Shown one piece after another: positions 4 through 29,405 of a DNA stretch of 33,515 bases. The notes under the pieces are model-generated. The model did not search any database. It had not been told where the DNA came from and was given only the letters and a program-made list of their open reading frames with translations. Position numbers and translations under genes: made by a program. The DNA is from Candidatus Polarisedimenticola svalbardensis (GTDB lineage Bacteria; Acidobacteriota; Polarisedimenticolia; Polarisedimenticolales; Polarisedimenticolaceae), in contig JACXWD010000004.1 of the NCBI GenBank assembly GCA_014764515.1, positions 79,537-113,051 on the forward strand, written 5' to 3'. How positions within the stretch are numbered: the first letter of the stretch is position 1; the number at the start of each line of letters is the position of its first letter.

Positions 4-34
4 AGAACGCCCGGGAGAGTCTCCCGGGCGTTCT
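4..34. terminator. Perfect 15-bp hairpin, probable terminator of the gene upstream of the window
   Basis: Bases 4-18 are exactly complementary to bases 20-34, a GC-rich 15-bp stem with a minimal loop. It lies just before the leader of the cytochrome operon. It is not followed by a long T run, so as an intrinsic terminator it is atypical. A symmetric stem like this could also act for a gene arriving from the other side. It most likely insulates the operon from an upstream unit outside the window. Confidence 0.6.
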
Positions 35-38
35 ATTA

Positions 39-104
39 GGGGGCTACCCCGATGAAAACAGGCAATCTGCACTAATATTGAGTATCTTATTGCAGGCGCG
101 GGGT
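39..104 (+). promoter_or_regulatory. Leader able to form alternative stems before the first operon gene
   Basis: Read as RNA, ACCCCG at 46-51 can pair with CGGGGT at 99-104, enclosing a second stem GCAAT (62-66) with ATTGC (89-93). The same C-run at 47-50 can instead pair with the G-run at 40-43. The two pairings are mutually exclusive, and the downstream one ends a few bases before the ribosome binding site at about 109-114. I do not recognise a known riboswitch family, and it could be chance in GC-rich DNA. Confidence 0.22.
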
Positions 105-109
105 TTGCG
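94..109 (+). promoter_or_regulatory. Possible sigma54 (-24/-12) promoter element
   Basis: AGGCGCG-GGGT-TTGCG resembles the sigma54 consensus TGGCACG-N4-TTGCA, with GG and GC in the required spacing. It is the only GG-N10-GC match in the leader with good flanks, and an NtrC-type activator lies at the end of the same gene block. The problem is geometry: a start 12 bases past the GC falls on base 120, the A of the first ATG, which would make the transcript leaderless although a Shine-Dalgarno-like GGAGAG sits at 109-114. No convincing sigma70 promoter was seen in bases 35-119. Confidence 0.2.
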
Positions 110-119
110 GAGAGCGATC

Positions 120-2210
120 ATGAGGCGAGGCAAGGCGATCCCAGGATTGGGTCTGGCGGCGGTCCTGCTGCTGCTCACCTGCCCGGCCCTCCAGGCCGCC
201 GATGTCAATGGCTCGATCCTGGTCACCGGCGGAACCAACGAGATCGACGACGAGGAAACCGATGTCCTCGATCAGCGCTACCAGATCACCCTGGTCCAAC
301 CGGTTTCACAGTTCCTCGGATTCAACCTGAACTACATATACCGGGGGCTTGAAACCAGCCCCGAGAACGGCGTCGACTTCGAGCGCAGGACCTCCCAGCC
401 CGGCATCGAGCTGTCCTACAGCCGCAACCGGTTCTCATCCCGGATGACCTACCGGGAGCGGCGCACCCGTGGGACCAGCCCGGCGGACAAACTGGACGCC
501 ACCGCGTTCGTGGCCAGCGTTACCTGGGATCCTGAACGGGGCCCGCTGGCCCAGCTGCAGTACCGGGATGAAACCAACTTTTCGGATGTTGCGGTGTTTG
601 GAAGAGATGTCACCAACCGGACCTGGGATCTCGAAGTAGGCCGGGAATACAAGGACTGGTCCGCCTGGTACGAATATTCAAACGTCAATATCGACAACGC
701 TGTGGGCGAACTCTCTCTGGAACAGCAGCAGCACGAAGTCCGAGGCAGCTACCAGTTCAAGACCTGGCAGGACCGGATGATCTTTTTCGCCAACGGTCAG
801 GTCCGGAAGGTGGACAACGACTCCCGGGTCCCCAGCGGCACCCTGTTTGACCAGCCGGTGCCGGCCCGTGGTGGACTGTTCGCCGTGGACACCACCCCGG
901 AGATCTGGCGCCTGGAGCCGGCGCCTGCCCTGGTTGACGGCGACACCGAAACACCGGTAGAGCCCGACATCAACATCGGCGGGGCCAACACGTTCCGGAA
1001 CATCGGTCTTGACCTGGGGTTCATCCGTCCGGTGAGCCAGCTGGAAGTGACGGTGGACCGATTGTCAGGCCCCGGCCTGATCTGGGAGGTCTACCACAGC
1101 CCGGACAACCTGAACTGGGAACTGGTGCCGGGGGTAACCTCCCTGTGGGACACTGCATTCTTGAGGTACTCCATCCAGTTCCCGGAAACCGAGGATCAGT
1201 ATTTCAAGGCGGTGAACGTCAGCGTCAACTCCGAAACCGACGTGCTGGTCACCGAAATTCGCGCCTTGCGGGAGGTGCAAAGTACCGGTAGAACCACGGG
1301 GCAGTCCACCGACATCCGCACCGATCTCAACCTGCTGTTCCAACCGAACGAACGGGTCTACAGCAGTTTTTCCCTGGGATACAACGATGAGGACGATGTC
1401 GTCCCCGGTGTATCCATTCGCGGCCTCCGGGATCTGTACTACACCAGCAGCGTCCGTGTTGTCCTGACGCCGGAACTGGATCTGAGCATGCATTACGGCT
1501 TTTCCAACCGGGAGGAAGACCGGGAGCCGGTGATCGAAAGGGGCGACCGATCCTACGGAGCCGGCCTGACATGGACACCGTTGCCGGCGGTGGACGGCCA
1601 GCTGAACTTCAACCATCGGGAAGAAAGCGAGCGGGGGGCCACCCTCCGGCTGGATGATACGGTTCGCCTGCGGCTGGCCACCGAACTGTTCCCGGAACTG
1701 CTCCTGACTACCGAACTGCTGGCCAACGATTCGGACAACGATTTCGCCGGGTTCAGCCAGTCCAGCTGGACCTGGCGGGAGTCACTGATCAGCCGCCCAA
1801 CCCGGCGATGGACCCTGTCCGGTGCATACAGCTACACCGAGTTCGATTCCACCGGGTCGGTGAACCTGTCGAAGCGGACCTCCCTGACGGTGCGAACCGC
1901 CTGGATGCCGGTGCCGACCGTCAACATCGGTGCGACCTACGGCGAGGGCAAGGATGACAACCAGGAAACATCCGACGAACGCTACTTCCTGGTCTGGACC
2001 CCGGGCCGCAAACTGACCTGTTCCCTGGTTTATAATGATAATGAAGCGGTAGGGTTTCGACAGCTCACCAGCGCCAGCGCTCAAGTGCAGTACCGGCCCC
2101 ACCGCAGGCTCCGTCTGTTCGTCACCGGCAGCCGGTCTGAAGAGGCGGTGGTGAACCTGGCCGTGGCAGAGACCACCAGCATCCGGGCGGGACTCAGCCT
2201 GACCCTGTAA
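120..2210 (+). CDS. Outer-membrane beta-barrel with embedded discoidin-like domain (channel component, OscE/F/G-type)
   Basis: 696 residues. The signal peptide (residues 1-26, ending ALQA) fixes the ATG at 120, which has GGAGAG 6 bases upstream; the frame is open further upstream but without a signal sequence. Residues about 30-235 and 395-696 are alternating hydrophobic/polar segments rich in Tyr, Arg and Asp, typical of a large porin-like barrel. Residues about 285-385 interrupt this with a globular domain resembling the F5/8 type C (discoidin) fold (WEVYHSPDNLNWELV, then a YFKAVNVSV-like strand). The protein ends SLTL rather than in Phe. It leads the operon and is 12 bases ahead of the lipoprotein gene. 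By position and partners it matches the channel-like parts of the published omcS-companion cluster; secretion of the cytochrome through it is inference. An electron-conduit porin of the MtrB/PioB sort is the alternative. Confidence 0.72.
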   Translation: MRRGKAIPGLGLAAVLLLLTCPALQAADVNGSILVTGGTNEIDDEETDVLDQRYQITLVQPVSQFLGFNLNYIYRGLETSPENGVDFERRTSQPGIELSYSRNRFSSRMTYRERRTRGTSPADKLDATAFVASVTWDPERGPLAQLQYRDETNFSDVAVFGRDVTNRTWDLEVGREYKDWSAWYEYSNVNIDNAVGELSLEQQQHEVRGSYQFKTWQDRMIFFANGQVRKVDNDSRVPSGTLFDQPVPARGGLFAVDTTPEIWRLEPAPALVDGDTETPVEPDINIGGANTFRNIGLDLGFIRPVSQLEVTVDRLSGPGLIWEVYHSPDNLNWELVPGVTSLWDTAFLRYSIQFPETEDQYFKAVNVSVNSETDVLVTEIRALREVQSTGRTTGQSTDIRTDLNLLFQPNERVYSSFSLGYNDEDDVVPGVSIRGLRDLYYTSSVRVVLTPELDLSMHYGFSNREEDREPVIERGDRSYGAGLTWTPLPAVDGQLNFNHREESERGATLRLDDTVRLRLATELFPELLLTTELLANDSDNDFAGFSQSSWTWRESLISRPTRRWTLSGAYSYTEFDSTGSVNLSKRTSLTVRTAWMPVPTVNIGATYGEGKDDNQETSDERYFLVWTPGRKLTCSLVYNDNEAVGFRQLTSASAQVQYRPHRRLRLFVTGSRSEEAVVNLAVAETTSIRAGLSLTL

Positions 2211-2222
2211 CGGAGTAACCAG

Positions 2223-2801
2223 ATGAACTTGAAACGTCGATTATCGGTACTGGCCCTGATCCTGGCCGCGGCAGCCTTCGCCGGCTGTGGCCGGGGGATG
2301 CGGCCTACCAAGTTCACCAATTCCGACTACAACTTCGCATATCTCGAGAGGGTCGCCATCCTGCCGTTGTTGAACATGTCGGAAGACCGCCAGGCCGGTT
2401 CCCGGGCGACACGGATCCTGATCACCGAACTCCTGGCCAGCGAGGCGGTGGACGTGGTGGAGCCTGGAGAGACGCGAGCCGCCTTGAACCGGATCACCTC
2501 CGGTGACCCGACCCCGACCACCGAACAGATCATCGCACTAGGCAAGGCGCTGAACGTCCAGGCAGTGCTCCAGGGCAGCGTGGCCCAGTCCGGGTCCAGT
2601 ATGGCCGGTACGGTGATGATCCCGGTAGTGACCCTGGATGTGCACATGCTGGAAACCGAATCGGGACAGGTCATCTGGGCCGCCACACACACCGAGAAAG
2701 GCAGCTCCGCCGGGGCCGCGATCCTGGGGACCGGATCGGAGCCGATCTCACAGACCACCCGGCGATGCGCGCGGCGTATCATCAAAACCCTGGTGAACTG
2801 A
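2223..2801 (+). CDS. Small CsgG/GNA1162-like outer-membrane lipoprotein
   Basis: 192 residues, with ATG preceded by CGGAG. The N-terminus is a lipoprotein signal: basic start, hydrophobic core, then FAGC with Cys22 as the lipidation site. The mature part has the pattern of the CsgG/TolB-N/DUF799 group: an opening strand VAILPLLNMS near residue 45, a helix leading to ITELL, a VDVVEP strand, the segment ALNVQAVLQGSVAQ, and a closing strand ETESGQVIWAATH. Such lipoproteins form or plug outer-membrane secretion pores or sit on the inner leaflet beside barrels. It lies between the barrel gene and a second CsgG-like protein, so the three probably form one export assembly (OscEFG-type). The exact subfamily is uncertain. 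Confidence 0.72.
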   Translation: MNLKRRLSVLALILAAAAFAGCGRGMRPTKFTNSDYNFAYLERVAILPLLNMSEDRQAGSRATRILITELLASEAVDVVEPGETRAALNRITSGDPTPTTEQIIALGKALNVQAVLQGSVAQSGSSMAGTVMIPVVTLDVHMLETESGQVIWAATHTEKGSSAGAAILGTGSEPISQTTRRCARRIIKTLVN

Positions 2802-2824
2802 TCGGCTCCCGGGCGGCCAGCACC

Positions 2825-3916
2825 ATGTGGCGAGCATTCACCCGACCGATACTGTTAGCGCTGGTGGCCGCATCGTGTTGCACCGCGGCCATGGCATCCG
2901 GTCCGCCACGTTTGGTCCTCCTCCCGGTCCAGGACCGGATCGGCAACCCGGAATTGGCTGAGTTGGTACGGCGGACGGTTCGGGAGGAGTTGGCCGGCCG
3001 GTTCATCCTGACCCATCCCATGACGGTACGGGACGGATTGCGGGCAGGCCGTATCCGGGATGCCGGCGCCACCACTCCTTCTCGACTGGCCGGCCTGGCC
3101 CTGGAACTGGATGCGACCCGTTTCCTGTCCGTCACCCTCCACCAGGCGGTGGAGGGCGCGATACCGATCATTACCCTCTCCGCCCAATCTTTCGAAGCCG
3201 GGGAAAACCGTTTGAGCTGGGCCGGCTTCCGGTCCGCCTCCGGTCTGGACGAACGCAAGATGCTGGGCCTGGGAGTCATCGAAAATCTGGACGACCTGGC
3301 ACGCCGTACAACACGCCGGCTGATGGAGGATTTCCTCAAGCCCGAAACCGGTCGGACCGGCCGGATTAAGGTACCCACCCCCAAGGAGGGCACCTATCTC
3401 CGCAGCATGCTCAATACCCGGACCATGAGCAAGATGGCGGTGCTGCCGTTCGATTCGGTGGTTAACCGCCAGCCCCAGGCCGCCGCGGAAATGGCCACAG
3501 CCGCACTCATGGCGGTGCTGCATCGCAAGGGCGCCCCCCTGACCCATCCGGGAATCGTGGACGAAACCCTTCGCCGACGCTACGAGCAGCGTTATGGCGG
3601 GCTGGACGAACTGTCCCGGGCGGCGCTCAAGATCGGTGGCGGAGCCCGCTGGTTCATCACGGGAACCGTGGAAACCCTTGAAATGAAAGGGGGTATCGAG
3701 CCGGTACCCTGGATCGCACTGGGGGTTCGGGTGGTGGACGTGGAAACCGGACAGATTTTCTGGATTGGCGGACTGGAGAGAACCGGCGAGGAAGAGGAAA
3801 ATGTATTTGGTCTGGACCGGGTGCACTCCCCGGGAGAATTGCTGGACGGCATGCTGGACGGGATCAGCGCCGCATTTCTTCGAACGGTCGAAGTAGAAAG
3901 GGATGGATCCAAGTGA
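2825..3916 (+). CDS. Periplasmic protein with two tandem CsgG/TolB-N-like domains
   Basis: 363 residues. I start at ATG 2825, which gives a signal peptide (residues 1-25, ending AMA). The same frame opens at 2765 inside the preceding gene but would put 20 hydrophilic residues ahead of the signal. Domain 1 (about 28-175) opens with the strand RLVLLPVQD and domain 2 (about 203-355) with KMAVLPFDS. Both continue with a helix and later a strand, the second ending VDVETGQIFWIGG, very like the preceding lipoprotein. Two Cys in SCC at residues 17-18 do not form a good lipobox. The gene ends in a GTGA overlap with the isomerase gene. I read it as a duplicated CsgG-like subunit of the same envelope assembly; nothing suggests an enzyme. 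Confidence 0.68.
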   Translation: MWRAFTRPILLALVAASCCTAAMASGPPRLVLLPVQDRIGNPELAELVRRTVREELAGRFILTHPMTVRDGLRAGRIRDAGATTPSRLAGLALELDATRFLSVTLHQAVEGAIPIITLSAQSFEAGENRLSWAGFRSASGLDERKMLGLGVIENLDDLARRTTRRLMEDFLKPETGRTGRIKVPTPKEGTYLRSMLNTRTMSKMAVLPFDSVVNRQPQAAAEMATAALMAVLHRKGAPLTHPGIVDETLRRRYEQRYGGLDELSRAALKIGGGARWFITGTVETLEMKGGIEPVPWIALGVRVVDVETGQIFWIGGLERTGEEEENVFGLDRVHSPGELLDGMLDGISAAFLRTVEVERDGSK

Positions 3917-5637
3917 AGCGCATCCTCATTTTCATATCGATAAGCCTGCTTGCCGGTTTCGCGGCAGTGGGAGCCCCGGATACAACCAAGACTCCCTCCC
4001 CCAAAAAGCAGGCGGAGCCCAACGTGGTGGCCACCGTCAACGGAGAACCGATCCTCCTCAAAGACATTGAAAGCCGTCTTGGCAAGATTCACGGCGAAGC
4101 GATGGACAGCGAACGCGCCGGTTTCGATCTGGACCTGCTGCTTTTCAAAATGACCAACGACCTCCTCCTGGGCCAGGAAGCCAGGGCCCTCGAGATGGAC
4201 CAGGAACCGCCGACCAACGATCAGATCCGGCTTTTCCGCAACGACCTGCTGCTGAAGGTCCTGGACGCCGAAGAAGTGGTGGAGCCGTCCCGGCCAACCG
4301 ATGAGGAGATCGCCGAGCGGTACGAACTGCTGTACCGCAGGATCACTCTTCGTGTGATCACCAAGTACGAACAGGAGGAGACCGGGGAGGTTATCGCGCT
4401 GCTGGAAGAGGGCGCTGATGTCGCCGACGTGGCCAGGGATCACTCGGTGGACCCTTACGCTCTACGAGGCGGTCTGGTAGACGGCATCGCCCGGATCGAC
4501 CTCCAGAAAGACATCGCAGACTTCGCATTCGAGATGAGCCCCGGGCAGGTCGCCGGTCCGATCCGAACCGACCTGGGCTGGTCGGTGATCAAGGTGGAGA
4601 GCTTTGAAGATGCCGACCCGGAACTGTTCGACGCCCGCAAGCGGAAGGTCTCCAGCCTGGTGCAATACGAGAAGGCGACCGAGCTGCGATCGAAATTGAC
4701 GATAGAAACCAAGGCCAACCACCCGGTCAAGATCGACCAGAAGGCGGTGGAGGCAGTGAAACCGAAACGGCTGCCTGACGCCCGCCTGACGCCGGACTAT
4801 CCGGACCCGGATGCCGTCGTGGTCCGCATCGGCGAGAGCCGCACCATCACCGCCGAGGAATACGGCAGGGCTCTCCTGACCCGCTGGAGCGGGGTCCGCA
4901 ACGAAGAGGCGGCGGTGGCCGCCGCTCCGATCATCCTCCAGAAGACCATCGACAAGGAACTGCTGCTGGCCGAGGCGGAAGACAGGGGCTACTCCGATCG
5001 ACCGAAATTCAAGCATGCGGTAAACAACCGGGAAACCGAACTGCTGATCCCCCGTTACCTGGACCAGGTCGTCGCGCCCCGGGTGAAGGTGACGGAGGAA
5101 GATCTCAAGCAATATTTCGCCGACCATGTAGACGAATTCCACAAGCTGCCCCGGGTCCGGCTGGGCCAGATCACCGTGGCTACCGAAGAGACAGCCCTCC
5201 GGCTGGCGGATCAGCTCAGGGACGGCGCCGACCTGGCCTGGCTGGTAAAACAGCACTCCATCGACCGTTACAAGGAGGCCGGTGGTGATCGGGGCTGGAT
5301 GACCCCGAACCCGGGCCTGGACCGGATCCACGACCAGTTGCTGGAAGCTCCCAAGGGGACCATCCTCGACCCGTTCGGGGTGACGGACAACTGGCAGGTG
5401 CTCATGGTCACCGGAAGGGAAGAGCAGGGCCTGTACACGTTCGACGAGATCTCGGGGAACATCCGCAAGAAGGTTCTCAAGGATAAGTTCGTCGTCGTCC
5501 TGGACGAATTCATGAAAAAACTCCGGGAGCGGGCTGAAATCACAGTCAACAAAGATGTCCTGGCCACCCTCAACATCAGTGGAACGATGGAGGCTGCTGC
5601 CGGGGAAGAGGGAGAACATGGTGCGCACGGCCATTAG
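3913..5637 (+). CDS. Periplasmic SurA-like prolyl isomerase with two parvulin domains (OscH-type chaperone)
   Basis: 574 residues from GTG 3913, which overlaps the previous stop by 4 bases (GTGA). A signal peptide ends near AVGA (residue 21). The architecture is a doubled SurA: a SurA-N-like helical segment starting VVATVNGEPILLKDI (about 38-130), parvulin 1 (about 142-230, with DVARDHSVDP and ending GWSVIKVES), a second helical segment from about residue 300 (ITAEEYGRALLTRW), and parvulin 2 (about 412-502, with LVKQHSIDRYKEAGGDRGW and WQVLMVTGRE). The last residues are a Gly/Glu/His tail. Parvulins isomerise X-Pro bonds and SurA escorts outer-membrane proteins. The cytochromes here are full of His-x-Pro and Pro-His pairs, likely clients. 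In Geobacter an isomerase-containing chaperone is required for OmcS nanowires. Whether both catalytic sites are active cannot be judged here. Confidence 0.85.
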   Translation: MKRILIFISISLLAGFAAVGAPDTTKTPSPKKQAEPNVVATVNGEPILLKDIESRLGKIHGEAMDSERAGFDLDLLLFKMTNDLLLGQEARALEMDQEPPTNDQIRLFRNDLLLKVLDAEEVVEPSRPTDEEIAERYELLYRRITLRVITKYEQEETGEVIALLEEGADVADVARDHSVDPYALRGGLVDGIARIDLQKDIADFAFEMSPGQVAGPIRTDLGWSVIKVESFEDADPELFDARKRKVSSLVQYEKATELRSKLTIETKANHPVKIDQKAVEAVKPKRLPDARLTPDYPDPDAVVVRIGESRTITAEEYGRALLTRWSGVRNEEAAVAAAPIILQKTIDKELLLAEAEDRGYSDRPKFKHAVNNRETELLIPRYLDQVVAPRVKVTEEDLKQYFADHVDEFHKLPRVRLGQITVATEETALRLADQLRDGADLAWLVKQHSIDRYKEAGGDRGWMTPNPGLDRIHDQLLEAPKGTILDPFGVTDNWQVLMVTGREEQGLYTFDEISGNIRKKVLKDKFVVVLDEFMKKLRERAEITVNKDVLATLNISGTMEAAAGEEGEHGAHGH

Positions 5638-7549
5638 ACACCGGGTCCTGACCTGCGGGATCGTCTTCGTCCTTGCGTTTGCGCTGCCGGCGACAGCACA
5701 GCTCAAAAAGGGCAAGCGGTTCGATAAAGGCAGCAGTTGCCTTGAGTGCCACGAAGATGTGGGCAAGGGGTTCCGGGTCACCCACGACCCTTTGAAGAAG
5801 GGTGAGTGCGGTTCCTGCCACAAGCCTCATGGACTGGTAGGCGCCCTGCGCCTGCAGAAGGAAGAGCCGGACCTCTGCCTGGATTGCCATGATGCCGGTT
5901 CAATCGACCTGAACGCCAGGCATGTCCACCCGAACACCGACAACTGCTCAACCTGCCACGCCCCCCACGGTTCGGATAACCAGGCTCTCCTGGTCAGCCC
6001 TGCCGCCCAGTTGTGCCGGGACTGCCATGACGGCGACGGGTTCAAGCAGCAGGTGGTCCATGCTCCGGTGGCGAACGGCTGCAAGTCATGCCACGTCCGC
6101 CACGGCAGCCCCCACGAGGGAATGCTGAAAAGCGAGCGGGAAGCGTTGTGCGGCTCCTGCCACAGTGGTCAGGCCGGCGGTTTCCGCTCGGCCCATGCCG
6201 GTGTCTCGGTGGAGGGAGCGGATTGCGCCTCCTGCCATCCACCCCACTCCGCCGCCTCCGCCGGCCTGTTGAAGGCATCGGTCCATCCCGAACTGGATTG
6301 CGCCACCTGCCATGAAGACGGCAATGGAGCCGCTCCGGCCGACGGTGCGGCCATCTGCCTGAACTGCCACGACATGCCGGAGAAGCCGGCAGGCGGATCG
6401 ATCCACCCGCCTGCAGCGGCCGGCGACTGTCTCGACTGCCACAACCCGCACACCTCGGACCACGCGCCCCTTCTGGTTGCATCTCAACAGATGACCTGCG
6501 GGACCTGCCACGACGGCATCGTCGACAAGGCGGCCGGTCCCCATGCCCACCCGGTAGCCCTGGAATGCGCCAACTGCCACACCGGGCACAGCTCCGGCCA
6601 GAACAACCTGCTGGTGGCGGAAGCACGGGCCCTGTGCGTTTCCTGCCATGACGACCCGGAACAGTCCGGCGACCCGGTGATCCACCCCCCTGCTACCGGC
6701 GACTGCATCGATTGCCACGACCCTCACGGCTCGGGCCTCCGCGGGATGCTGCTGGCCGAACAGGTGGAGCTTTGCGGCGACTGCCACAGCGACATCGGCA
6801 CCCTTTCCGGTATGCCGGTGGTCCATTCACCTGCGGCCACCGGCTCCTGTTCCTCCTGCCACCTGCCCCACTCCGGGCCGGACAAGCTGGTCCGGGCCCA
6901 GGGGGCGGAGCTGTGCCGGGACTGCCACGGGGCGATGCTGGACACAGCCGAGGGGCTGCCGAAACACGGACCTTTCGACGACGGCGACTGCTCCACCTGC
7001 CACGTCCCCCACGCATCGGAGACTGCCGGTCTGCTGGTGGAAGGCCAGCAGGCGCTGTGCGCCAACTGCCACGATGTGGAAACGGCCCAGCCCGCCGGTG
7101 GTTCCAGCCACAAACCGGCTGCCGACGGCCGGTGCAGTGCATGCCACCAGCCCCACGCAAGCAAGAACAACGCGTTTCTCAACGCCAAGCCGAGAGCGCT
7201 GTGCGCCAGCTGTCATGGCGCGCTGGAGAAGCGTTTGACCGACGAGGTCGCCCACGCTCCGGCGGCGGATACAGACGGCTGCCTGACCTGTCACAGCCCC
7301 CACGTGAGCCGGAACCCGGGACTGCTGCTTGAGCCTGCCACCGCCACCTGCCTCGGCTGCCACGATGGCGACGAACCGGACTTCGGCAAGAAACACCTGG
7401 GCTTCGCGGCGGAATCCATCGACTGCCGCTCGTGCCACGATCCCCATGCTTCCCCCTTGACCGGCATGCTGTTGCCGGTACTCCATCCGCCGTTTGCCGA
7501 AGGGGACTGCGCCACCTGCCATGGTGACACCGAGGGAGGCCGGCCATGA
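5618..7549 (+). CDS. 26-heme doubled-CXXCH cytochrome c
   Basis: 643 residues. ATG 5618, preceded by GAAGAGGGA, gives a signal peptide ending ATAQ and overlaps the isomerase gene by 20 bases; earlier in-frame starts would lack a signal. I count 26 CXXCH motifs, all canonical, about one per 25 residues. They fall into a repeated two-heme unit of roughly 50 residues of the form HxPxxxGxCxxCHxPHxS, then Leu-Leu, then LCxxCH. The HxP and PH histidines are the likely distal ligands, giving bis-His hemes. The protein stops immediately after motif 26, in the middle of a unit. It is probably a periplasmic or surface electron reservoir or wire feeding the hexaheme cytochrome; its exact place is not shown by sequence. 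It is coupled by ATGA to the next cytochrome gene. Confidence 0.92.
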   Translation: MVRTAIRHRVLTCGIVFVLAFALPATAQLKKGKRFDKGSSCLECHEDVGKGFRVTHDPLKKGECGSCHKPHGLVGALRLQKEEPDLCLDCHDAGSIDLNARHVHPNTDNCSTCHAPHGSDNQALLVSPAAQLCRDCHDGDGFKQQVVHAPVANGCKSCHVRHGSPHEGMLKSEREALCGSCHSGQAGGFRSAHAGVSVEGADCASCHPPHSAASAGLLKASVHPELDCATCHEDGNGAAPADGAAICLNCHDMPEKPAGGSIHPPAAAGDCLDCHNPHTSDHAPLLVASQQMTCGTCHDGIVDKAAGPHAHPVALECANCHTGHSSGQNNLLVAEARALCVSCHDDPEQSGDPVIHPPATGDCIDCHDPHGSGLRGMLLAEQVELCGDCHSDIGTLSGMPVVHSPAATGSCSSCHLPHSGPDKLVRAQGAELCRDCHGAMLDTAEGLPKHGPFDDGDCSTCHVPHASETAGLLVEGQQALCANCHDVETAQPAGGSSHKPAADGRCSACHQPHASKNNAFLNAKPRALCASCHGALEKRLTDEVAHAPAADTDGCLTCHSPHVSRNPGLLLEPATATCLGCHDGDEPDFGKKHLGFAAESIDCRSCHDPHASPLTGMLLPVLHPPFAEGDCATCHGDTEGGRP

Positions 7550-8778
7550 AGATCCTCAAGGTAACCCTGTTGTTTTTGCTCCTCTCATCGGTCGCCATGG
7601 CGGTGGATATCGATCAGGGCGAGATCTGCCTGATGTGCCACGACAGCCTGGCGGAGCAGCTCCAGGCAGCCGTCCCCCACGCACCTGCAGCCGCCGGCGA
7701 GTGCAGCGCCTGTCACAACCCTCACGTTTCCAGGTTCGAGCATCTGCTCCAGGACCGGCCCGGACCGCTGTGCCTTTCCTGCCACGAGGATCTGGGACAG
7801 GAACTGGATCGCGCCGTCGTCCACCAGCCGGTAGCCGAGGGTCGCTGCGTCGACTGTCATACCCCCCATGGGGGACCGAACCCGAAGTTGCTGGTACGGG
7901 ATACGGCAACCTTGTGCGCCGGCTGTCACGAGGACATCAACCGCTGGAAGAAACTCCCGGTACAGCACCCGCCGTTTGCAAAGGGCGATTGCAGCACCTG
8001 CCATGAGCCCCATGCATCGGATCATGATGCCCTTTCGGCCCGTCCCATCGGCGAGAGCTGCACCCAGTGCCATCAGGTGGACATTACCTTCAAGTCGGCC
8101 CACCAGGGCTACCCGGTTGAGACCGCAGCCTGCCAGCAGTGCCACGACCCCCACGCTTCGGCCCAGGCCGGCCTGTTCCGCAAACAACTCCATCCCCCGT
8201 TCGAGTCCGGGCGCTGTACCGCCTGCCATGCTCTTCCGGGATCGGAAGAGCCTTTCAGCACCCGCTTGCCGATGGACAAGCTTTGCGGCGACTGCCATGA
8301 AGAACAGGTGGAGCGCTCCCGGAACGCACCGTTCCCCCACGTCTCCGCCGGTGGCGGCGACTGCCAGCTCTGCCACAACCCTCACACTGCTGACGGCAGC
8401 GGTCTCCTGAACAAACCGATGGAGGCACTCTGCCTGTCCTGCCACGACCCGGGCGGATCCTCAACCGGCTGGGCCGGGAGGTACGTGAGTCACGGCAATG
8501 GCCTGGAATGCAGCAACTGTCATGAGCCTCACGGCGGCGACCATCCGATCCTGATGGTCGAGACGGTCATGGACACCTGCAACGCCTGCCACGAACACCA
8601 GCACAACGTGGCCCATCCCCAGGGCGAAGCGACCCGGGATCCTCGAACCGGAAGGAGTATGGACTGCATCTCCTGCCACGGTATCCACGATGCGCCTCAC
8701 CCCAAATTCATGCATCGGGAATCGGACCGGGAACTCTGCATCGGATGCCACAAGAACCTGGGGAGGAGAGACCGATGA
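7546..8778 (+). CDS. 16-heme doubled-CXXCH cytochrome c
   Basis: 410 residues, with ATG 7546 in an ATGA overlap and GAGGGAGG upstream. The signal peptide ends VAMA (residue 18 or 19). It has 16 canonical CXXCH motifs in the same two-heme repeat as its neighbour, and the two are clearly paralogous. Its first motif (CLMCH) is the second half of a unit, complementary to the half unit that ends the 26-heme protein. Spacing is looser than in the neighbour, with longer linkers between motifs 7 and 8 and between 14 and 15 (the latter with several extra His). Heme attachment would use the periplasmic cytochrome c maturation system. The role is inferred to be electron transfer between the periplasm or outer membrane and the hexaheme filament. 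Confidence 0.92.
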   Translation: MKILKVTLLFLLLSSVAMAVDIDQGEICLMCHDSLAEQLQAAVPHAPAAAGECSACHNPHVSRFEHLLQDRPGPLCLSCHEDLGQELDRAVVHQPVAEGRCVDCHTPHGGPNPKLLVRDTATLCAGCHEDINRWKKLPVQHPPFAKGDCSTCHEPHASDHDALSARPIGESCTQCHQVDITFKSAHQGYPVETAACQQCHDPHASAQAGLFRKQLHPPFESGRCTACHALPGSEEPFSTRLPMDKLCGDCHEEQVERSRNAPFPHVSAGGGDCQLCHNPHTADGSGLLNKPMEALCLSCHDPGGSSTGWAGRYVSHGNGLECSNCHEPHGGDHPILMVETVMDTCNACHEHQHNVAHPQGEATRDPRTGRSMDCISCHGIHDAPHPKFMHRESDRELCIGCHKNLGRRDR

Positions 8779-9662
8779 ACCGACGTGGAATGATCGCCTG
8801 CGCCGTCCTCCTGCTGGCTTGCCTGCCAGGCGCTCTCGCAGCGGAAGAGGACCGGCTGTTCGCCTTTGAAGTTGTCGTGGACAACGAGGACTCCTCGGCG
8901 GTACGGAAGCCGACCGGTGTGGCCGCCGGATCGGATACCGAACTGGCGGTGGTGGACGCCCACGACAACCGCCTGTTGATTTTCGGGTTCTCAGGCACCG
9001 AGTGGACTGTCCAACAGACCGTCAATCTTCCGGCTGTGCCCCTGGCCATCGCACACGACGGCACCCGCTACCTGGTCTCCCTGCGGGAAGGGATGGGGCT
9101 CATGGCGGTTGAAGGCACCCGCCACCAACTCCGGCCTGTCTCGCTGCCGGTGGGAGCGGTAGCCGGCGTCGTGGCTGGAATTCCCGGCGGCGGGTTCCTG
9201 GTTCATGATTCCGCCGGCCACCAGGTCCTGACCCTGACACAGGCCGGCAAGGTGGAAGGCGGCACTCCGGTCCAGCCGGGGACGGTGGGTATCGCCGCAA
9301 CCCGCAGCGGCGGCTTCTTCGTGTCCCTCCCGGCTTCAGGAGAGATCCTGAGTTACGACGCCACCGGCAAACAGACCGGCCGGTGGGCCGTGCCTGCGGT
9401 GGAACCGGTTCCTGCCTGGCCGGTCTCCATGGTCCAGATCGAAGGCGATCTGATCGCCCTGGATCGTCATGGCCATCGACTGGTCCAGTTCAACAGCAAG
9501 AACCAGTTCCAGGGCATCGGCGCCCGCCGTGGCTGGGAGCCGGGGTTGCTGCTGTTTCCCGTGGCCTTGACCGCGTTTCCCGACGGCCGCGTGGCTGTGG
9601 CCGACCAGATGAACGGCCGGATCCAGATCTACCGCCGCATCGAGGAAGAACCGGCGCAATGA
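8775..9662 (+). CDS. Secreted NHL-type beta-propeller, first of a pair
   Basis: 295 residues from ATG 8775 (ATGA overlap, GGGAGGAGAG upstream). The signal peptide ends GALA. The rest is a series of blades with the pattern GVAAGSDTELAVVDAHDNRLLIF, recurring as a hydrophobic strand, an Asp/Asn turn and a strand ending in Ile-Tyr or Val-Phe; the last blade reads FPDGRVAVADQMNGRIQIYRR when divided at its turns. There are no catalytic residues and no CXXCH. NHL propellers bind other macromolecules. In the omcS-companion cluster a propeller (OscD) affects filament morphology. This blade set is more degenerate than the next gene's, so this may be the divergent copy. Confidence 0.78.
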   Translation: MNRRGMIACAVLLLACLPGALAAEEDRLFAFEVVVDNEDSSAVRKPTGVAAGSDTELAVVDAHDNRLLIFGFSGTEWTVQQTVNLPAVPLAIAHDGTRYLVSLREGMGLMAVEGTRHQLRPVSLPVGAVAGVVAGIPGGGFLVHDSAGHQVLTLTQAGKVEGGTPVQPGTVGIAATRSGGFFVSLPASGEILSYDATGKQTGRWAVPAVEPVPAWPVSMVQIEGDLIALDRHGHRLVQFNSKNQFQGIGARRGWEPGLLLFPVALTAFPDGRVAVADQMNGRIQIYRRIEEEPAQ

Positions 9663-10630
9663 GACGGCTGTCGGCTATATCCGGGTCTGTTCTCCTGGCC
9701 GCCGCCATCCTGGCAGCCGGGGGAGCCGGTGCCGAAGATGTGGCGGCGCCGGCCTACCGGCAGCTTCTGAAACTACCGACCCAGGCGGACCAGATCGGCT
9801 TTCCGGGATCGGTAGTGGCCGACGTCAGAACCGGTGAGGTATTCATTCCGGACATCCGCAATCGCAGGATCACCATCTTCGACCAGCGCGGGATGTTTCT
9901 GTACCAGATCGCCGGAGGAGAGCAGTTTACCGGCCCCAGGGACCTGGCAGTGGATCCTGAAGGCTACATCCTCCTGGCGGCCCAGATCGATGAAGGGGTC
10001 GGCCTGGCCTGGCTTGACTTCGACGGCCTGTTCATCAGGCCGGTCACCCTGACCGGGGACGCACTCAAGGACCACGAACTCCCTGAACTGGTCTCGGTGG
10101 CGCTGTCTCCCGACGGGGAAAAAATCTACGCACTGGACCAGGCCAATTTCACCATGTGGATCACCGACCGCGACGGGCAGGTGGAAAGCTCGGTCCTGCT
10201 GATTCCGGACAGGGAGACCGAGAGCCCGGGCGACACCCTCCTGGGTCACGTAGACGTCTATGGAGACAAGGTTCTGGTCGCGGTCCCCTCCCTTGGATTG
10301 GTCTACGTCTATGACCTTGAAGGGGAACCGATCCGTCATATCGGCCGGAAAGGAACCGCGCCCTGCCGAACCGGGTTCCCCATGGCGGCCGCCCTGGACC
10401 GCAACGGCAATGTCATCATCATCGACCAGCAGCGCACCATCGGCATGATCTGGAGCCTGGAGAGCGGAAAGTGTCTGCAGGAGTTTTCCGGTATCGGCCG
10501 GTCCCCCGGCGCCATGTACCAGCCGAATGACCTTGCCCTGGACAGCCGCGGGAACGTATATGTAAGTCAGGGGTTCGAAGGCCGGGTGCAGGTCTACAAA
10601 GGGTTTGCACCTGCGGCTGAGGCGCCATGA
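9659..10630 (+). CDS. Secreted NHL-type beta-propeller, second of a pair (OscD-like)
   Basis: 323 residues from ATG 9659 in an ATGA overlap. The frame is open for 92 codons upstream, but only this start gives a signal peptide (ending GAGA, about residue 27). About six NHL blades are visible, for example GEVFIPDIRNRRITIFDQRG, GPRDLAVDPEGYILLAA and the closing NDLALDSRGNVYVSQG followed by GRVQVYKGF. The blades include Asp-x-Asn turns and terminal aromatic residues typical of the family. The gene lies directly before the OmcS homologue, overlapping it by 4 bases, so the two are made together. A role in assembly or capping of the cytochrome filament is inferred from the Geobacter OscD precedent. 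Confidence 0.8.
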   Translation: MRRLSAISGSVLLAAAILAAGGAGAEDVAAPAYRQLLKLPTQADQIGFPGSVVADVRTGEVFIPDIRNRRITIFDQRGMFLYQIAGGEQFTGPRDLAVDPEGYILLAAQIDEGVGLAWLDFDGLFIRPVTLTGDALKDHELPELVSVALSPDGEKIYALDQANFTMWITDRDGQVESSVLLIPDRETESPGDTLLGHVDVYGDKVLVAVPSLGLVYVYDLEGEPIRHIGRKGTAPCRTGFPMAAALDRNGNVIIIDQQRTIGMIWSLESGKCLQEFSGIGRSPGAMYQPNDLALDSRGNVYVSQGFEGRVQVYKGFAPAAEAP

Positions 10631-11661
10631 ATCGAACTGCGGCACTTATGTTGATCCTGCTGGCAGGCCTTCTGGCCTCCCCGGCAACCGCTTTCCATGA
10701 CGGCGGCGTCGGCGCCTGCAACGGCTGCCATGTCACCCACACCGTCGACGGCAGTCCGGTTATCAGCACCTTCCTCCTGATCGGCGAGAACTCCACCGAC
10801 ACCTGCCTGCGCTGCCACGGCATCACCGCAGGCAACAGCTGGGGCATGGACGTCCTGGCTCCCGGGCCACTCTACGGCGGCGGGCCGTTTATATTCCTGA
10901 CGGAAGACAACCTCAACGACGGACCGGGCAGCAGCCTGATCATTTCAGGCGACCATGCCGGCCACAATGTCGTTTCTCCCCTGATGGGGACCGGCACCGA
11001 CATCAACAACCCGACCGCTCCCGGTGGAACCTACCCTTCCAGTTACATGACATGCACTTCCTGCCATGACCCTCACGGACAGGGGAACCATTTCCGGTTC
11101 CTGTACGGTAGCGACTTTCCGTTAAGCCGGTCCGGCGGATACGAGTTCAACTACACGAGGCCCGCCATCGTGGCCGACGGTATCTCCATCTTCGGCCCCC
11201 CGGAATCGGACACCAACCACACCGCCTACCGCTCCGGTGCAGCCGCGTGGTGCGGCAACTGTCACAGCCGGATCCATCGCGGCAGCGATGCAACCTTCCG
11301 GCATATCGAGGATCGATCCCTGGGAAGCACCACCCGGGAGTACAACAGCTACCTGGGAACCGGAGATGATTCCGGGACAGGCGTCGATGCGTATTCGGTC
11401 CTGGTGCCTTACGAAGACCTGTCGTCTCCAGGGACCGGCAACACCGGCCCGGCCAACAATACGTCAAGAGTGATGTGCCTGTCCTGCCACCGGGCCCACG
11501 CTTCCTCGGCGCCCTATGCCGGCCGTTGGGACTTCAACATCCTGACCTGGGCCGACGAAGGCATGCTCTCCGGTTCCTATGCGATTCCCAACCCGTATCC
11601 TCTTGTCGGCCCGGCCCAGGCCCAGCTGTGCGAGAAGTGCCACGGAACCGGCGGCCCCTGA
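10627..11661 (+). CDS. omcS: Hexaheme OmcS-family cytochrome, predicted nanowire subunit
   Basis: 344 residues; the signal peptide ends ATA, so mature Phe1 is followed by His2. Mature CXXCH motifs start at 9, 38, 121, 187, 262 and 313, six in all as in OmcS. Compared from memory, blocks shared with G. sulfurreducens OmcS include the mature start FHxGGVxxCxGCHxxH, GHNxV, APGGTYP...CxSCHDPHG, WCxNCHxxIH, FRH/LRH, YNSY, LxPxE, CLSCHRAHAS and LCxKCH at the C-terminus. His16, which in OmcS filaments ligates heme 5 of the neighbouring subunit, is present at the same position. Ten His outside the motifs (2, 16, 88, 91, 128, 133, 176, 195, 204, 269) are enough for bis-His ligation of all hemes. The mature protein is 322 residues, shorter than the roughly 400 of OmcS, mostly through loss of loops. 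Nearby genes encode the expected assembly factors. Filament formation is predicted, not shown. Confidence 0.88.
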   Translation: MNRTAALMLILLAGLLASPATAFHDGGVGACNGCHVTHTVDGSPVISTFLLIGENSTDTCLRCHGITAGNSWGMDVLAPGPLYGGGPFIFLTEDNLNDGPGSSLIISGDHAGHNVVSPLMGTGTDINNPTAPGGTYPSSYMTCTSCHDPHGQGNHFRFLYGSDFPLSRSGGYEFNYTRPAIVADGISIFGPPESDTNHTAYRSGAAAWCGNCHSRIHRGSDATFRHIEDRSLGSTTREYNSYLGTGDDSGTGVDAYSVLVPYEDLSSPGTGNTGPANNTSRVMCLSCHRAHASSAPYAGRWDFNILTWADEGMLSGSYAIPNPYPLVGPAQAQLCEKCHGTGGP

Positions 11662-11710: not shown

Positions 11711-13054
11711 GTGGCGCCTGATACCTTTCCAGTCGCAAGCAGATGGATGTTCCCCCGGGGCGTAACTGTCTGGCATTTCATCCTCATACCGCCCGTCGTC
11801 ATGGGCGGCGTCATCATCCTGTTTCGCTGGATCTCACGCTCGCTTCTGGATCCGGCCACCATCTCCGAAAACGGACTCTACGCCGTAGCCAGGATCGTGA
11901 CCATCAGCCTGGTGATGTCCCTGGTGATCGCCTGGCTGGCGTTTCGCCACCGTCGGGAATACGAGGCTCAGATCGCCGCCCAGAACGAGGATCTGGTGGC
12001 GACCCGGGACTTCCTGTCCAACGTCATCGAAACCTCCGGCGAAGTCATCATCACCCTGGACTCGGACGGCCACATCACCTCGTGGAACCGGACCGCCCAG
12101 CAGATCTACGGCTGGACCCAGGAGGAAATGCTCGGCGAGACCTGCGATCGTCTGTTCGCCGCTCCGGATGATCACGGCAACAAGTTCCGAATGCACTTGG
12201 ACACACTACAGGCCGGCGGCATGGTGCGTCATGAGGAGACCACGCACCGACGCAGGGACGGGTCCATCATCACCGTGCACGTGACCCTGTCCCCGCTGTT
12301 CGACGTTTCCGGACGATACGTCGGCGCGACCTCGCTCATCCACGACGTCACCAAGCTCAATGAGTTGCAGTCCCGCCTGGTGGAGCAGGAGCGCATGGCC
12401 GCCCTGGGGCAAATGGCGGCAGCGGTGGCTCATGAGATCAAGAACCCCCTGGCAGGGATCCGAGGCGGATGCGAGATCCTGCTCAAGGGAGCAAACGAGG
12501 TCGACCCCCGCACCGAGCTGGGGGAAGAAATGCTGTACCAGGTGGACCGGCTGAGTCGCTCCGTCCATGATCTGCTGGTGTTCGCAACGCCCAAGACAAT
12601 CAAACCGGTCCCGGCCCAGATCCATCTGATCGTGGACCGGGTGCTGAAAATGATCGCCGAAGATCCCAAAAACAAGGGGATCCAGGTGGACAGGCGGTAT
12701 GATTCGGAATTGGGCCACGTGCAGGTGGACCCTGAACTGATGGAACAGGTGTTTTTCAACGTGTTGCTGAACTCCTGCCAGGCGATGGATCTCAACGGAG
12801 CGATCACGATCACCACCGGCAAGGCGGGAAATCATGTCAGCGTGTCGGTACGGGATACCGGCGCCGGCATACCGGACGATGTCATTGCAAGAATATTCGA
12901 ACCGTTCTTCACCACACGAGCGAAAGGGACCGGCCTCGGCCTGGCGATCGTGAACAAGATCATCCACGATCATGGCGGCACTATCCGCGCCGTGCCGCCG
13001 GCCGACGGGGGGTCCGGCACGGAAGTGGTGATCCAGCTTCCGGCGGAGGCGTAA
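11711..13054 (+). CDS. Membrane PAS histidine kinase (NtrB-type)
   Basis: 447 residues. I use GTG 11711, which has a G-rich ribosome site (ACGGGG) about 8 bases upstream; ATG 11747 is the alternative. Two membrane helices (about 20-40 and 58-78) are separated by a short loop, so there is no sizeable periplasmic sensor. A PAS domain follows (about 100-215: [15 protein letters not shown]...YGWT). The HisKA H-box has His241 in [12 protein letters not shown]. The ATPase domain shows N-box Asn354, DTGAGIP at 382, FEPFFTT at 396 and GTGLGLA at 406. It would phosphorylate the response regulator encoded 2 bases downstream. It is 49 bases after the OmcS homologue with no clear terminator between, so it may share the operon transcript. 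PAS plus a membrane anchor suggests sensing of redox or of the quinone/membrane state. Confidence 0.9.
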
Positions 13055-13056
13055 CC

Positions 13057-14463
13057 ATGGCCAACGGCGAAAAGATCCTCATCGTCGAAGATGAAAAACT
13101 GATCCGGATGACGATCCGGGAGCTGCTGGAAAAAGAAGGGTACCGGGTCGGAGAGGCGGCCAACGGCGCCGAGGCGATGGAGTGCCTCCACAGCCAGGAG
13201 CCGGACCTGCTGCTCCTGGATTACCGCCTTCCGGACACCAACGGTCTCGAGATCCTCAAGGAATCACGGCGGTTGCATCCGGAAACCGGCGCCATCCTGA
13301 TGACCGCCTACTCCAGCATCGATTCCGCCGTAAAGGCGATCAAGCTGGGAGCCTACGATTACCTCAACAAACCGGTAAAGCATGACGACCTCCTGGCAAC
13401 CATCGCCAAGGCTCTGCAGACCACCCAGCTCCAACGCGAAGTGGCCCGGTTGAGAGGAGAGCAGAAGCGGGACTACGGCATCACCAACATCGTCGGCCGG
13501 TCCAGGCCTATGCTTGAGGTGTTCAACCTGATCCGCAAGGTCGCCGACTCCTCCGCCAGCACCGTTCTGCTCCAGGGCAAGTCGGGCACCGGCAAGGACC
13601 TGGTGGCCAAGGCGATCCATTTCTCGTCCGACCGGGCGGACAAACCGTTCATGAACATCACCTGCTCGGCAATCTCCGAAACCCTGATGGAGTCCGAGCT
13701 GTTCGGCCACGAGAAAGGGGCGTTCACCGACGCCCGCCAGCAGAAAAAAGGACTTCTGGAACTGGCCAAGGACGGCACGGTGTTCCTGGACGAGATCGGC
13801 GAAATGGGTCTGGCGTTGCAGGCCAAGCTGCTCCGCTTTCTGGAAGAGAAGACCTTCATGCGCGTCGGGGGCTCCCGGGATATCCAGGTGGATGTTCGGG
13901 TCATTGCCGCCACCAACCGGAATCTTCAGGAAGCGGTCGCCTCCGGGGAGTTCCGGGAGGATCTCTATTTCCGGCTCAAGGTCATCCCGATCCACCTTCC
14001 GGCGCTCAAGAACCGCAAGGACGACATCCCGGAACTGGTGGCTTATTTCATCAACCGGTACAACAAGGAATTCAGGAAGAACTGCCAGGGGATCAGCGAC
14101 GAGATGCTGAACTGCCTGATGAACTACGACTGGCCGGGCAATGTCCGCGAGCTCAAGAACATCATGGAACGAGCCATGATCCTTGAAACCAAGGACAAGC
14201 TGGACCTGGACGACCTGCCGGAAGAAATCGTGCAATACGACGGCGACCGCAGCGAAGGAAAGCCTTTAGGGGGAACGGGGCAGGCATCGGGCAGCACCGG
14301 CATCGTCCTCCCGGAAGGGGGCGTTTCACTCAAGGACGCCGAGTTCGAACTGGTCCGCCAGGCCCTGGACGCCACTGCCGGGAATCAGAGCAAAGCGGCC
14401 CGGCTGCTGAGGATCAGCCGGGACGCCCTGCGCTACAAAATGAAGAAGTTCGGCCTGAACTGA
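13057..14463 (+). CDS. NtrC-family sigma54-dependent response regulator
   Basis: 468 residues, ATG 13057, 2 bases after the kinase stop. The receiver domain (1-120) has phospho-acceptor Asp55 in [10 protein letters not shown], Thr83 and Lys105. The AAA+ domain (about 144-380) has Walker A GKSGTGKD (174-181), Walker B FLDEIGEM with Asp245/Glu246, and the sigma54-contacting loop reading GAFTDA (221-226) instead of the usual GAFTGA. A Fis-type helix-turn-helix closes the protein (about 427-465, [20 protein letters not shown]). It is the cognate partner of the kinase just upstream. The cytochrome operon is the most likely target, by position and by a weak sigma54-like element at 94-109. The gene ends 2 bases from the convergent peptidase gene. 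Confidence 0.93.
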
Positions 14464-25352: not shown

Positions 25353-25393
25353 TCCAGCTTAAGCATTGCATATCCATTTACTAGGAATTGAGC

Positions 25394-26074
25394 ATGCAGG
25401 AATTCAGCTTGTTGTCGCCGGGCGCGCCGCTGTCGATCACGGATCTTTTGATCAATCTGGTCATCGGAGCGATCCTCGCAGGCGTCCTGAAGTGGCATTT
25501 CGGCAAATTCGCATCCACTCTTTCGAACCGCGGCGCTTTTGCCCAGGTGTTTCCGTTCATCCTGCTGACCACCATCCTGATCATCAGTGTGGTGAAATCG
25601 TCCCTGGCCCTCTCCCTGGGTCTGGTCGGCGCGCTGTCAATCGTCCGGTTCCGGACGCCGATCAAGGAACCGGAAGAGCTCGCCTACCTCTTCATGGCGA
25701 TCTCCGTAGGCCTTGGACTGGGTGCGGATCAGAGGGGGGCGACCATCGCGGCGGCCGCCGTCATTCTGGTCGTCGTCGCCTTGTATAAACGAGCCGGTCG
25801 GCGGATCGACCAGAAAAGCATGTTCCTGTCGGTGCGATACAGCGAGAAAAGCGGTGAGGGCAATTTCCTCAACTCGGTGAGCGAGATCCTGGGGAAGCAC
25901 ACCCTGTCGCAGGATATGCGCCGGGTCGACACGGCGGAAGGCCAGGTCGATGCGACATTCTTCGTGGACATCGAGCATGAAACCAGTCTGGTTCCGATGC
26001 TGGACGAGCTCAGGGTGGCATTCCCGGGAATTGATCTGACGTTCATCGATCAAAACCGCCTGCCAAGCGTCTAG
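25394..26074 (+). CDS. DUF4956 membrane protein
   Basis: 226 residues from ATG 25394 (a TTG two codons earlier is less likely; AGGA is 7 bases upstream). Three to four membrane helices fill the first 130 residues. The family hallmark LGLVGALSIVRFRTPIKEPE (about 77-96), followed by ELAYLFMAISVGLGLGA, is intact. The C-terminal 95 residues form a soluble domain ending IDLTFIDQNRLP. The biochemical function is unknown. DUF4956 genes commonly sit beside VTC-domain and CotH genes, as here, and a role as a membrane partner of polyphosphate synthesis or export is often assumed by context. The stop is 5 bases before the CotH gene. Confidence 0.87.
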   Translation: MQEFSLLSPGAPLSITDLLINLVIGAILAGVLKWHFGKFASTLSNRGAFAQVFPFILLTTILIISVVKSSLALSLGLVGALSIVRFRTPIKEPEELAYLFMAISVGLGLGADQRGATIAAAAVILVVVALYKRAGRRIDQKSMFLSVRYSEKSGEGNFLNSVSEILGKHTLSQDMRRVDTAEGQVDATFFVDIEHETSLVPMLDELRVAFPGIDLTFIDQNRLPSV

Positions 26075-26079
26075 AACCG

Positions 26080-28719: not shown

Positions 28720-29405
28720 CGATCCCCCTGGATGATCTTCGGTACGAGATCAAATTTGTCGTTCCCCGTCCTGAAGCGTACAGGATGCATGGATGGCTCA
28801 AGACCCATGCCGAGGGTTTCCGTGTGGCCTATCCTCCCCGGAAGGTCAACAACGTCTATTTCGACAATTTCGACCTGGCGACCTACGACGAGAACCTGTC
28901 GGGTGTCAGCGAACGGACCAAGATCCGGCTTCGGTGGTACGGCATCGACAAGGAACTCCTGGATGGCCGTCTCGAACTGAAGCAGAAGAAGAACCGCCTG
29001 GGCTGGAAGACGACTTTCAAGGTTCAGGGCCTGCCGTTCATCGGGCGCACCTGGCAGCAGATCGGACGTGATTTGCGGGAACTCCTTCCTATGGAGGCCC
29101 AGAGGTGGCTCGACCTTCATCCCGAGCCGGTGATCATCAACCGCTACGAGCGGGAATACTACGTCTCCCGTGACGGGCAGGTGCGCATCACTCTCGACAC
29201 CGGTCTGACAGTGCTGGATCAACGCCTGGCCCGCAGCCCCAACCGCACCGCCAGGACCAACCTGCCGGATGTGATGATCGTGGAGGCCAAAGCGGTGGAC
29301 AGGGCGTTTCGCGAGCTGGGACGGGTCGTCTCCGACATCCCGGTTCGCGTCGGACGATTCTCCAAGTACGTCAACGGGTTGCAGACGATCCTGACATCAT
29401 CCTGA
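28716..29405 (+). CDS. VTC-domain protein (polyphosphate polymerase fold)
   Basis: 229 residues from ATG 28716 (ATGA overlap); the frame is open upstream inside the CotH gene but without a ribosome site. The tunnel-fold motifs are all present: YEIKFVV with Glu11/Lys13, the basic strand RTKIRLRWYG (Arg67, Lys69, Arg71, Arg73), LELKQKK (Glu87, Lys89), YEREYY with Arg146, RITLDTG with Arg157/Asp161, VEAKA (Glu190, Lys192) and RFSKYVNG (Lys217). In yeast Vtc4 this domain makes polyphosphate from ATP inside a basic tunnel. It has no membrane segment, so it presumably works at the inner face with DUF4956. It converges with the EamA gene and overlaps its 3' end by 9 bases. Confidence 0.88.
   Translation: MTIPLDDLRYEIKFVVPRPEAYRMHGWLKTHAEGFRVAYPPRKVNNVYFDNFDLATYDENLSGVSERTKIRLRWYGIDKELLDGRLELKQKKNRLGWKTTFKVQGLPFIGRTWQQIGRDLRELLPMEAQRWLDLHPEPVIINRYEREYYVSRDGQVRITLDTGLTVLDQRLARSPNRTARTNLPDVMIVEAKAVDRAFRELGRVVSDIPVRVGRFSKYVNGLQTILTSS

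Follow-up and report, generated by a model that had tools for sequence, protein, structure and literature searches.

Can bacteria well outside Geobacter build conducting filaments of the OmcS type, and which machinery would they use? The question is raised by a stretch of 33,515 nucleotides (G000:C156:79537-113051, hereafter 'the window') from the metagenome-assembled genome (MAG; 3.69 Mb in 180 contigs) of an uncultured bacterium of the Acidobacteriota, in which genes for an outer-membrane barrel, lipoproteins, a prolyl isomerase, multiheme cytochromes and NHL propellers follow one another. In Geobacter sulfurreducens, the OmcS-like hexaheme GSU2501 is followed by an eight-gene block, GSU2500-GSU2493, which has been tied to the maturation and secretion of nanowires (PMC12977616). 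The names oscC, oscI and oscJ belong to GSU2501, GSU2495 and GSU2494, respectively (PMC13194489), and OscD to OscH therefore correspond to GSU2500 to GSU2496. We read the acidobacterial locus as an osc operon that makes and exports an OmcS-type filament linked to the periplasm, and give this reading a probability of about 0.78; filament formation itself is a prediction from sequence. Wire-building by osc machinery would then be expected well outside Geobacter, and the locus supports the idea of a single assembly machinery for OmcS-type conducting filaments that is common to many phyla.

Gene order and parts list

A first-pass annotation of the window had listed the parts of this locus, and every gene it named was found again at the same position. 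The features are given here in window coordinates unless stated otherwise:

G000:C156:78462-79469 (also L003:16454-17500), outside the window: HexA, hexaheme in the omcS position, directly before the barrel gene
4..34, + strand: perfect 14-base-pair (bp) hairpin between HexA and the barrel gene (RNA fold -36.6 kcal/mol, z -6.3)
120..2210, + strand, ATG start: OscE homologue, outer-membrane beta-barrel (homology and position relative to Geobacter-type clusters)
~828-1286, + strand: discoidin-like (F5/8 type C) domain inserted in the OscE barrel (weak Pfam F5_F8_type_C)
2223..2801, + strand: OscF homologue, PelC-type lipoprotein (lipobox FAGC; PelC profile matches; homologue in G465)
2825..3916, + strand: OscG homologue, PelC-type C-terminal domain and N-terminal domain of unknown type (PelC profile; homologues in G465 and G388)
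3913..5637, + strand: OscH homologue, exported double-parvulin prolyl isomerase of the SurA/PrsA type (two rotamase stretches; homologue in G465)
5618..7549, + strand: OscI homologue, 26-heme cytochrome c with Sec signal (26 CXXCH)
7546..8778, + strand: OscJ homologue, 16-heme cytochrome c with Sec signal (16 CXXCH)
8775..9662, + strand: NHL propeller 1, type of the GSU2493 position (Pfam NHL)
9659..10630, + strand: NHL propeller 2, of the type that precedes omcS in Desulfobacterota (Pfam NHL/SBBP)
10627..11661, + strand: HexB, OmcS-like hexaheme, short form, 322 residues when mature (OmcS as sole PDB match)
11711..13054, + strand: PAS sensor histidine kinase, probably a regulator of the operon (Pfam/NCBIfam)
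13057..14463, + strand: NtrC/AtoC-type sigma-54 response regulator (NCBIfam AtoC/NtrC matches)

The order within the window (OscE, OscF, OscG, OscH, OscI, OscJ, two NHL proteins, HexB, kinase, regulator) includes 4-bp overlaps at four junctions (7546/7549, 8775/8778, 9659/9662 and 10627/10630), the pattern of a translationally coupled operon. This bears out the earlier view of a single operon, to which HexA upstream and the kinase/regulator pair downstream can now be added. HexA, a second OmcS-like hexaheme, is the first gene of the operon and ends 37 bp before the window, the final 10 of these bases being N. The linkage of HexA to the barrel gene is real, since in the genus sibling (G001, uncultured Acidobacteria bacterium FO_M_Acidobacteriota_03.1) the DNA between the two is contiguous and collinear, with ~80% DNA identity to the host locus. 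All reading frames of the locus are intact and conserved in this sibling species.

For comparison with Geobacter-type clusters, Desulfobacterota genomes with close OmcS relatives (G465, 78%; G388, 74%) were used in place of G. sulfurreducens. Their clusters run from the hexaheme over OscD, barrel, two lipoproteins, isomerase, 26-heme and 16-heme cytochromes to an NHL protein, i.e. exactly eight genes follow the hexaheme, as in the GSU2500-GSU2493 block. The barrel, lipoproteins, isomerase, cytochromes and NHL proteins of the window match genes of G465 and G388 with the order kept (the E-values come from a small set, so that bit scores, ~27-100 for the parts without heme, deserve more weight). 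Homologues of OscE, OscF, OscG and OscH stand in this order (matches to G465, G388 and G257), and the stretch from OscE through the 26- and 16-heme genes to the NHL gene is collinear with G465, G388 and G256. The first-pass annotation had pointed to the same classes of part in the osc cluster and had staked this on a similarity of barrel, isomerase and propellers to osc proteins; this similarity is present, and barrel, lipoproteins, isomerase, giant cytochromes, one propeller and hexaheme all have same-order homologues in Desulfobacterota.

A survey of further loci found the order E-F-G-H-26 hemes-16 hemes in about ten phyla, including Acidobacteriota, Krumholzibacteriota, Zixibacteria, Calditrichota, Gemmatimonadota, Fibrobacterota, Poribacteria and others, and the arrangement is therefore not due to chance. 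Where at least 7.5 kilobases lie downstream of a first-position hexaheme (26 loci), barrel and PelC-type protein are present in every case and the isomerase in 24. Shen et al. 2025 (Cell Chem Biol), a study of the G. sulfurreducens osc cluster, which comprises GSU2501-GSU2493 along with omcS/omcT, reportedly calls the machinery widespread in its title.

The two giant cytochromes, with 42 hemes together, had been viewed as an extension of this machinery, a view that has to be given up: as OscI and OscJ, the 26- and 16-heme proteins are standard in Geobacter-type clusters. A 26-heme counterpart occupies the equivalent position in G388 and G256 and a 16-heme counterpart does so in G465, G388 and G256, while GSU2495 is likewise a 26-heme protein (PMC12977616). 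Local insertion of the two genes is ruled out by the Desulfobacterota counterparts together with the locus survey. Across the surveyed clusters, intact large cytochromes have 26 hemes (n=28), 16 hemes (n=24) or, when fused, 42 hemes (n=7), and rarely any other number; this count, constant even in fusions, makes the role of OscI and OscJ a sharp and testable matter. Fusion into one 42-heme protein was seen in L057, L063, L067, L073, L075, L089, L093 and L141, and leaves the heme total unchanged.

The osc block from OscE to OscJ is present in order, yet to call the locus complete, as had been done, goes too far, for it lacks OscD (467 residues and a propeller of the YNCE/lactonase type in G465), of which no homologue was found at E 0.01 in the whole host genome; the same search gave clear matches in G027, G031, G100, G388 and G256. 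Neither NHL protein can take its place, as the earlier comparison of the propellers with OscD had implied, because both match other cluster genes: the best Geobacter-type match of propeller 1 is the NHL protein directly 3′ of the 16-heme gene, i.e. in the position of GSU2493, and that of propeller 2, again an NHL protein, is encoded upstream of omcS in G388 and G465. An OscD gene hidden in the N gap upstream of the window is ruled out as well, given that the sibling DNA is contiguous and offers no room between HexA and the barrel gene. Other Acidobacteriota share the arrangement without OscD, and two genomes of the same class as the host, G031 and G027, have OscD together with long, OmcS-sized hexahemes. 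In these two (L155, L157/L158), the long OmcS-clade hexaheme and OscD are accompanied by a short-type hexaheme on the same contig.

The locus shares with the osc cluster of G. sulfurreducens the succession of hexaheme, barrel, two PelC-type lipoproteins, isomerase, 26-heme cytochrome, 16-heme cytochrome and NHL protein, as well as a kinase and sigma-54 regulator close by. Unlike that cluster, the locus has no OscD, its hexahemes are ~80 residues shorter, the operon ends with an additional NHL protein and an additional hexaheme, the subunit in the omcS position is apparently foreign, and the host belongs to the Acidobacteriota. The locus is a real addition to the osc clusters, an acidobacterial member whose variant features are the absent OscD, the short subunits, the two flanking hexahemes and a probable subunit swap. 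Such a reduced set, without OscD and with a shorter subunit, helps to ask which parts are essential.

The two hexahemes and the hairpin

HexB has OmcS (6EF8/6NEF) as its sole PDB match (E 1.4e-29) and carries six CXXCH motifs and six distal histidines (H24, H38, H113, H150, H226 and H291) that are invariant in 15 relatives. HexA is 48% identical to HexB, and all twelve heme-ligand histidines are kept in both. Among them is the equivalent of OmcS His16 (H38 in HexB, H36 in HexA), which we take from the OmcS structure to be the ligand to a heme of the neighbouring subunit. With OmcS, the two proteins further share the N-terminal FH..GGV and conserved segments around hemes 3-6. The bond across subunits is described in PMC12307469. 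Unlike OmcS, with its 407 residues, the hexahemes measure 322-326 residues when mature, and in a quick tree of 105 hexahemes both fall into a 70-row clade of short proteins (support 100), apart from the Desulfobacterota relatives of OmcS. Neither belongs to the OmcS clade or reaches its length of ~407 residues, so that the earlier label of hexaheme OmcS homologue is sound with regard to the PDB match and the distal histidines, and has to be qualified in that they form a sister clade and are not OmcS itself; polymerisation is predicted for them on the grounds of their sequences. The same annotation had taken the hexaheme of the window, HexB, as the OmcS homologue of the operon. The omcS slot, directly before the assembly block, is held by HexA, upstream of the window.

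The two hexahemes differ in their affiliation. HexB groups with acidobacterial relatives, some of which stand first in their respective clusters (G021, G037). HexA is nested in a clade of mainly Krumholzibacteriota hexahemes, with ~71-79% identity to its best matches (75-79% in L049, L046 and L043). Barrel and isomerase are only 20-26% identical to those of the same Krumholzibacteriota clusters, compared with the 33-49% normally seen between isomerases of cluster pairs whose hexahemes are at least 70% identical, and OscH groups among Acidobacteriota in its tree. Because HexA is Krumholzibacteriota-like while OscH and the assembly genes are acidobacterial, these data most simply suggest that HexA arrived through horizontal transfer as a replacement subunit. 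Its placement is less probably due to unequal rates or contamination, since the sibling MAG has the same arrangement on one contig. More tentatively, and at somewhat less than even odds, the subunit may be an exchangeable cartridge, whereby in this genus the omcS slot is now of the Krumholzibacteriota type, the assembly line from OscE to OscJ is acidobacterial, and the original type is kept as HexB at the operon's end. If true, the machinery would ignore much of the subunit, wires could be made in two compositions, and osc operons across phyla would, as a general rule, produce a hairpin-controlled surplus of their first subunit.

In Desulfobacterota, some hexahemes at the end of clusters are without a His16 equivalent (L135:12487-13875, L135:14069-15409, L139:17768-19204). 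These proteins are thus probably unable to bond with the next subunit in the way of OmcS, and possibly serve as caps or terminators of the wire.

The hairpin after HexA is also present in the sibling, on contiguous DNA. Stems of at least 9 bp follow 62 of 113 hexahemes versus 44 of 253 other genes, and the association is with one type of hexaheme: the hairpin stands after 43 of the 64 proteins of the CH[T/S]MH type versus five of the 37 of the other type (Fisher p 1.3e-7, an optimistic value since the loci are related). It recurs 3′ of omcS-position hexahemes across phyla (L163:11535-11567, L046, L049, L061, L087, L100 and others), often with the core ACGCCCGGG...CCCGGGCGT. Its T-run is weak in the window, and no Rfam family was matched in the window, in the sequence upstream of it, in three sibling loci or in C55 (a second multiheme contig, see below), so that these stretches contain no known riboswitch. 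Probably, the hairpin is a partial terminator or an mRNA stabiliser that gives an excess of subunit mRNA.

Export or conduction across the outer membrane

How would such a subunit leave the cell? The AlphaFold model of OscE (mean predicted local distance difference test score, pLDDT, 88) has ~28 barrel strands by our own count, and by strand parity the discoidin-like insert should face outward. The two proteins encoded next to it had been called CsgG-like envelope proteins, which does not hold up: in Pfam CsgG, OscF reaches 13 bits versus the cut-off of 20.8, and OscG has no match. PelC fits better, with the family profile of OscF matching the PelC structures 5t11, 5t10 and 9h80 at 4e-11 to 3e-8 and that of OscG matching 9h80 at 1e-13. 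The PelC fold is accompanied by a lipobox, the lipoprotein signal, that is clear in OscF and possible in OscG. Twelve copies of PelC make up a periplasmic ring attached to the PelB barrel (PMC12141448). As in the PelBC exporter (9h80), where PelC is a 12-mer ring, an outer-membrane barrel is encoded here with PelC-fold lipoproteins; unlike in PelBC, there are two distinct PelC-type proteins, OscE has no detected sequence similarity to PelB, and the cargo would be a cytochrome rather than a polysaccharide. The PelC identity of OscF and OscG provides a structural model for the passage of a cytochrome across the outer membrane. As for OscH, its description as a double-parvulin isomerase stands, with PrsA and SurA matches in a PDB search.

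From these parts, the following route can be proposed. HexA would be the main wire subunit, made in excess since the hairpin would uncouple it from the genes that follow. Once folded by OscH in the periplasm, it would exit via an OscE barrel that rests on a ring of OscF and OscG, as in PelBC, and would polymerise outside by a head-to-tail His16-to-heme bond as in OmcS. OscI and OscJ, with 42 hemes between them, would act as a periplasmic relay of fixed length that supplies the wire, with HexB as a minor or alternative subunit and the NtrC-type pair turning the operon on, and HexA would have entered a resident acidobacterial assembly line from Krumholzibacteriota-like donors. We favour export over a mere conduit because the isomerase and the PelC-type proteins are conserved, and the co-conservation of cytochromes with fixed heme counts suggests that wire feeding is part of the same device.

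Several points weigh against filament export. Barrel and isomerase share only ~20-28% identity with their Geobacter-type counterparts, and OscD, named for wire morphology, is missing. The sister clade of short hexahemes has no characterised member and none known to polymerise, while the AlphaFold model of HexB (pLDDT 47) is unusable. The closest solved fold of OscE by template modelling score (TM-score) is MtrB, and the sole strong PDB match of OscI is Mtr chain A, both of which would fit an electron conduit too. Beyond this locus, the physiological importance of OmcS wires is disputed (PMC11077965, PMC13194489).

A sub-case that overlaps with filament export would unite the parts in one complex, in which OscE on PelC-type rings exports the subunit and then anchors the base of the wire, with OscI and OscJ in the same pore. 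Each of the two published interpretations, export and conduit, would then be right in part. The PelC homology of OscF and OscG taken with the likeness of OscI and OscE to MtrA and MtrB points this way, as does the co-conservation of all parts with their fixed 26+16 hemes, sometimes fused to 42. Yet this combines two weak structural similarities and presumes contact between the parts, and we regard the single complex as doubtful.

Less probable still, and in our view unlikely, is that the barrel and the 26- and 16-heme proteins form an Mtr-like porin-cytochrome conduit, with the hexahemes as extracellular terminal cytochromes that need not polymerise. Such a conduit would account for the structural matches just mentioned: MtrB (6r2q_B) gives the highest TM-score for the barrel, 0.42 versus 0.18-0.35 for the others among the matches listed, although 0.42 is below fold identity, and OscI has 6r2q_A (chain A of the Mtr complex; E 1.4e-22) as its sole PDB match at 1e-5 and exceeds the NCBIfam cut-off for DmsE/MtrA-type decahemes, although CXXCH-rich proteins match each other readily. 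In a test for the MtrB/PioB family, Pfam gave merely a sub-cut-off Porin_4 for the barrel, and PF11854 (MtrB_PioB) was not found over its cut-off anywhere in the genome, a result that can be counted in favour of a conduit at this locus as well as among its differences from MtrCAB. Moreover, OmcS-containing cassettes of syntrophic sulfate reducers, possibly but not necessarily made of the same genes, have been interpreted as porin:cytochrome systems (OetABI; PMC10553843). Like MtrCAB (6R2Q), the locus combines, within one operon, a large barrel with a multiheme protein resembling MtrA; unlike MtrCAB, it has 26+16 hemes instead of 10, and no outer-surface lipoprotein cytochrome of the MtrC/OmcB type is encoded beside the barrel. 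The parts for export and folding come in addition: PelC-type lipoproteins and the isomerase are nearly always present in surveyed clusters and would be superfluous for a conduit, and the hexahemes retain the inter-subunit histidine.

A decayed or repurposed osc cluster with soluble periplasmic hexahemes is very improbable, for although OscD is missing, HexA seems foreign and the two hexahemes have diverged to 48% identity, the frames are intact and conserved in the sibling, every ligand histidine is retained, and the OscD-less arrangement is shared with other Acidobacteriota.

Regulators and other loci

The regulator downstream of HexB is 42-46% identical to regulators adjoining other osc clusters, and genes for kinases and sigma-54 regulators adjoin the clusters in L141, L170 and L166; in G. 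sulfurreducens, a sensor kinase, GSU2507, is encoded near omcS (PMC3495685). A search for sigma-54 promoters gave no match in the window at one mismatch and no upstream excess at two.

The same genome contains a second multiheme cluster on contig C55 (L021:3190-11619), with one 21-heme, two 4-heme and one 7-heme cytochrome, among which two NHL proteins are interspersed; barrel, PelC-type and isomerase genes were not detected in this cluster.

Further downstream in the window (25388-29405), adjoining genes have products that look like a membrane protein akin to DUF4956, a CotH/parallel-beta-helix protein and a protein with a VTC-like domain, three proteins that often occur as a trio. The gene at 20507-22978 is predicted by its motifs to encode a P-type ATPase for heavy metals, probably copper, with one metal-binding domain at each end.

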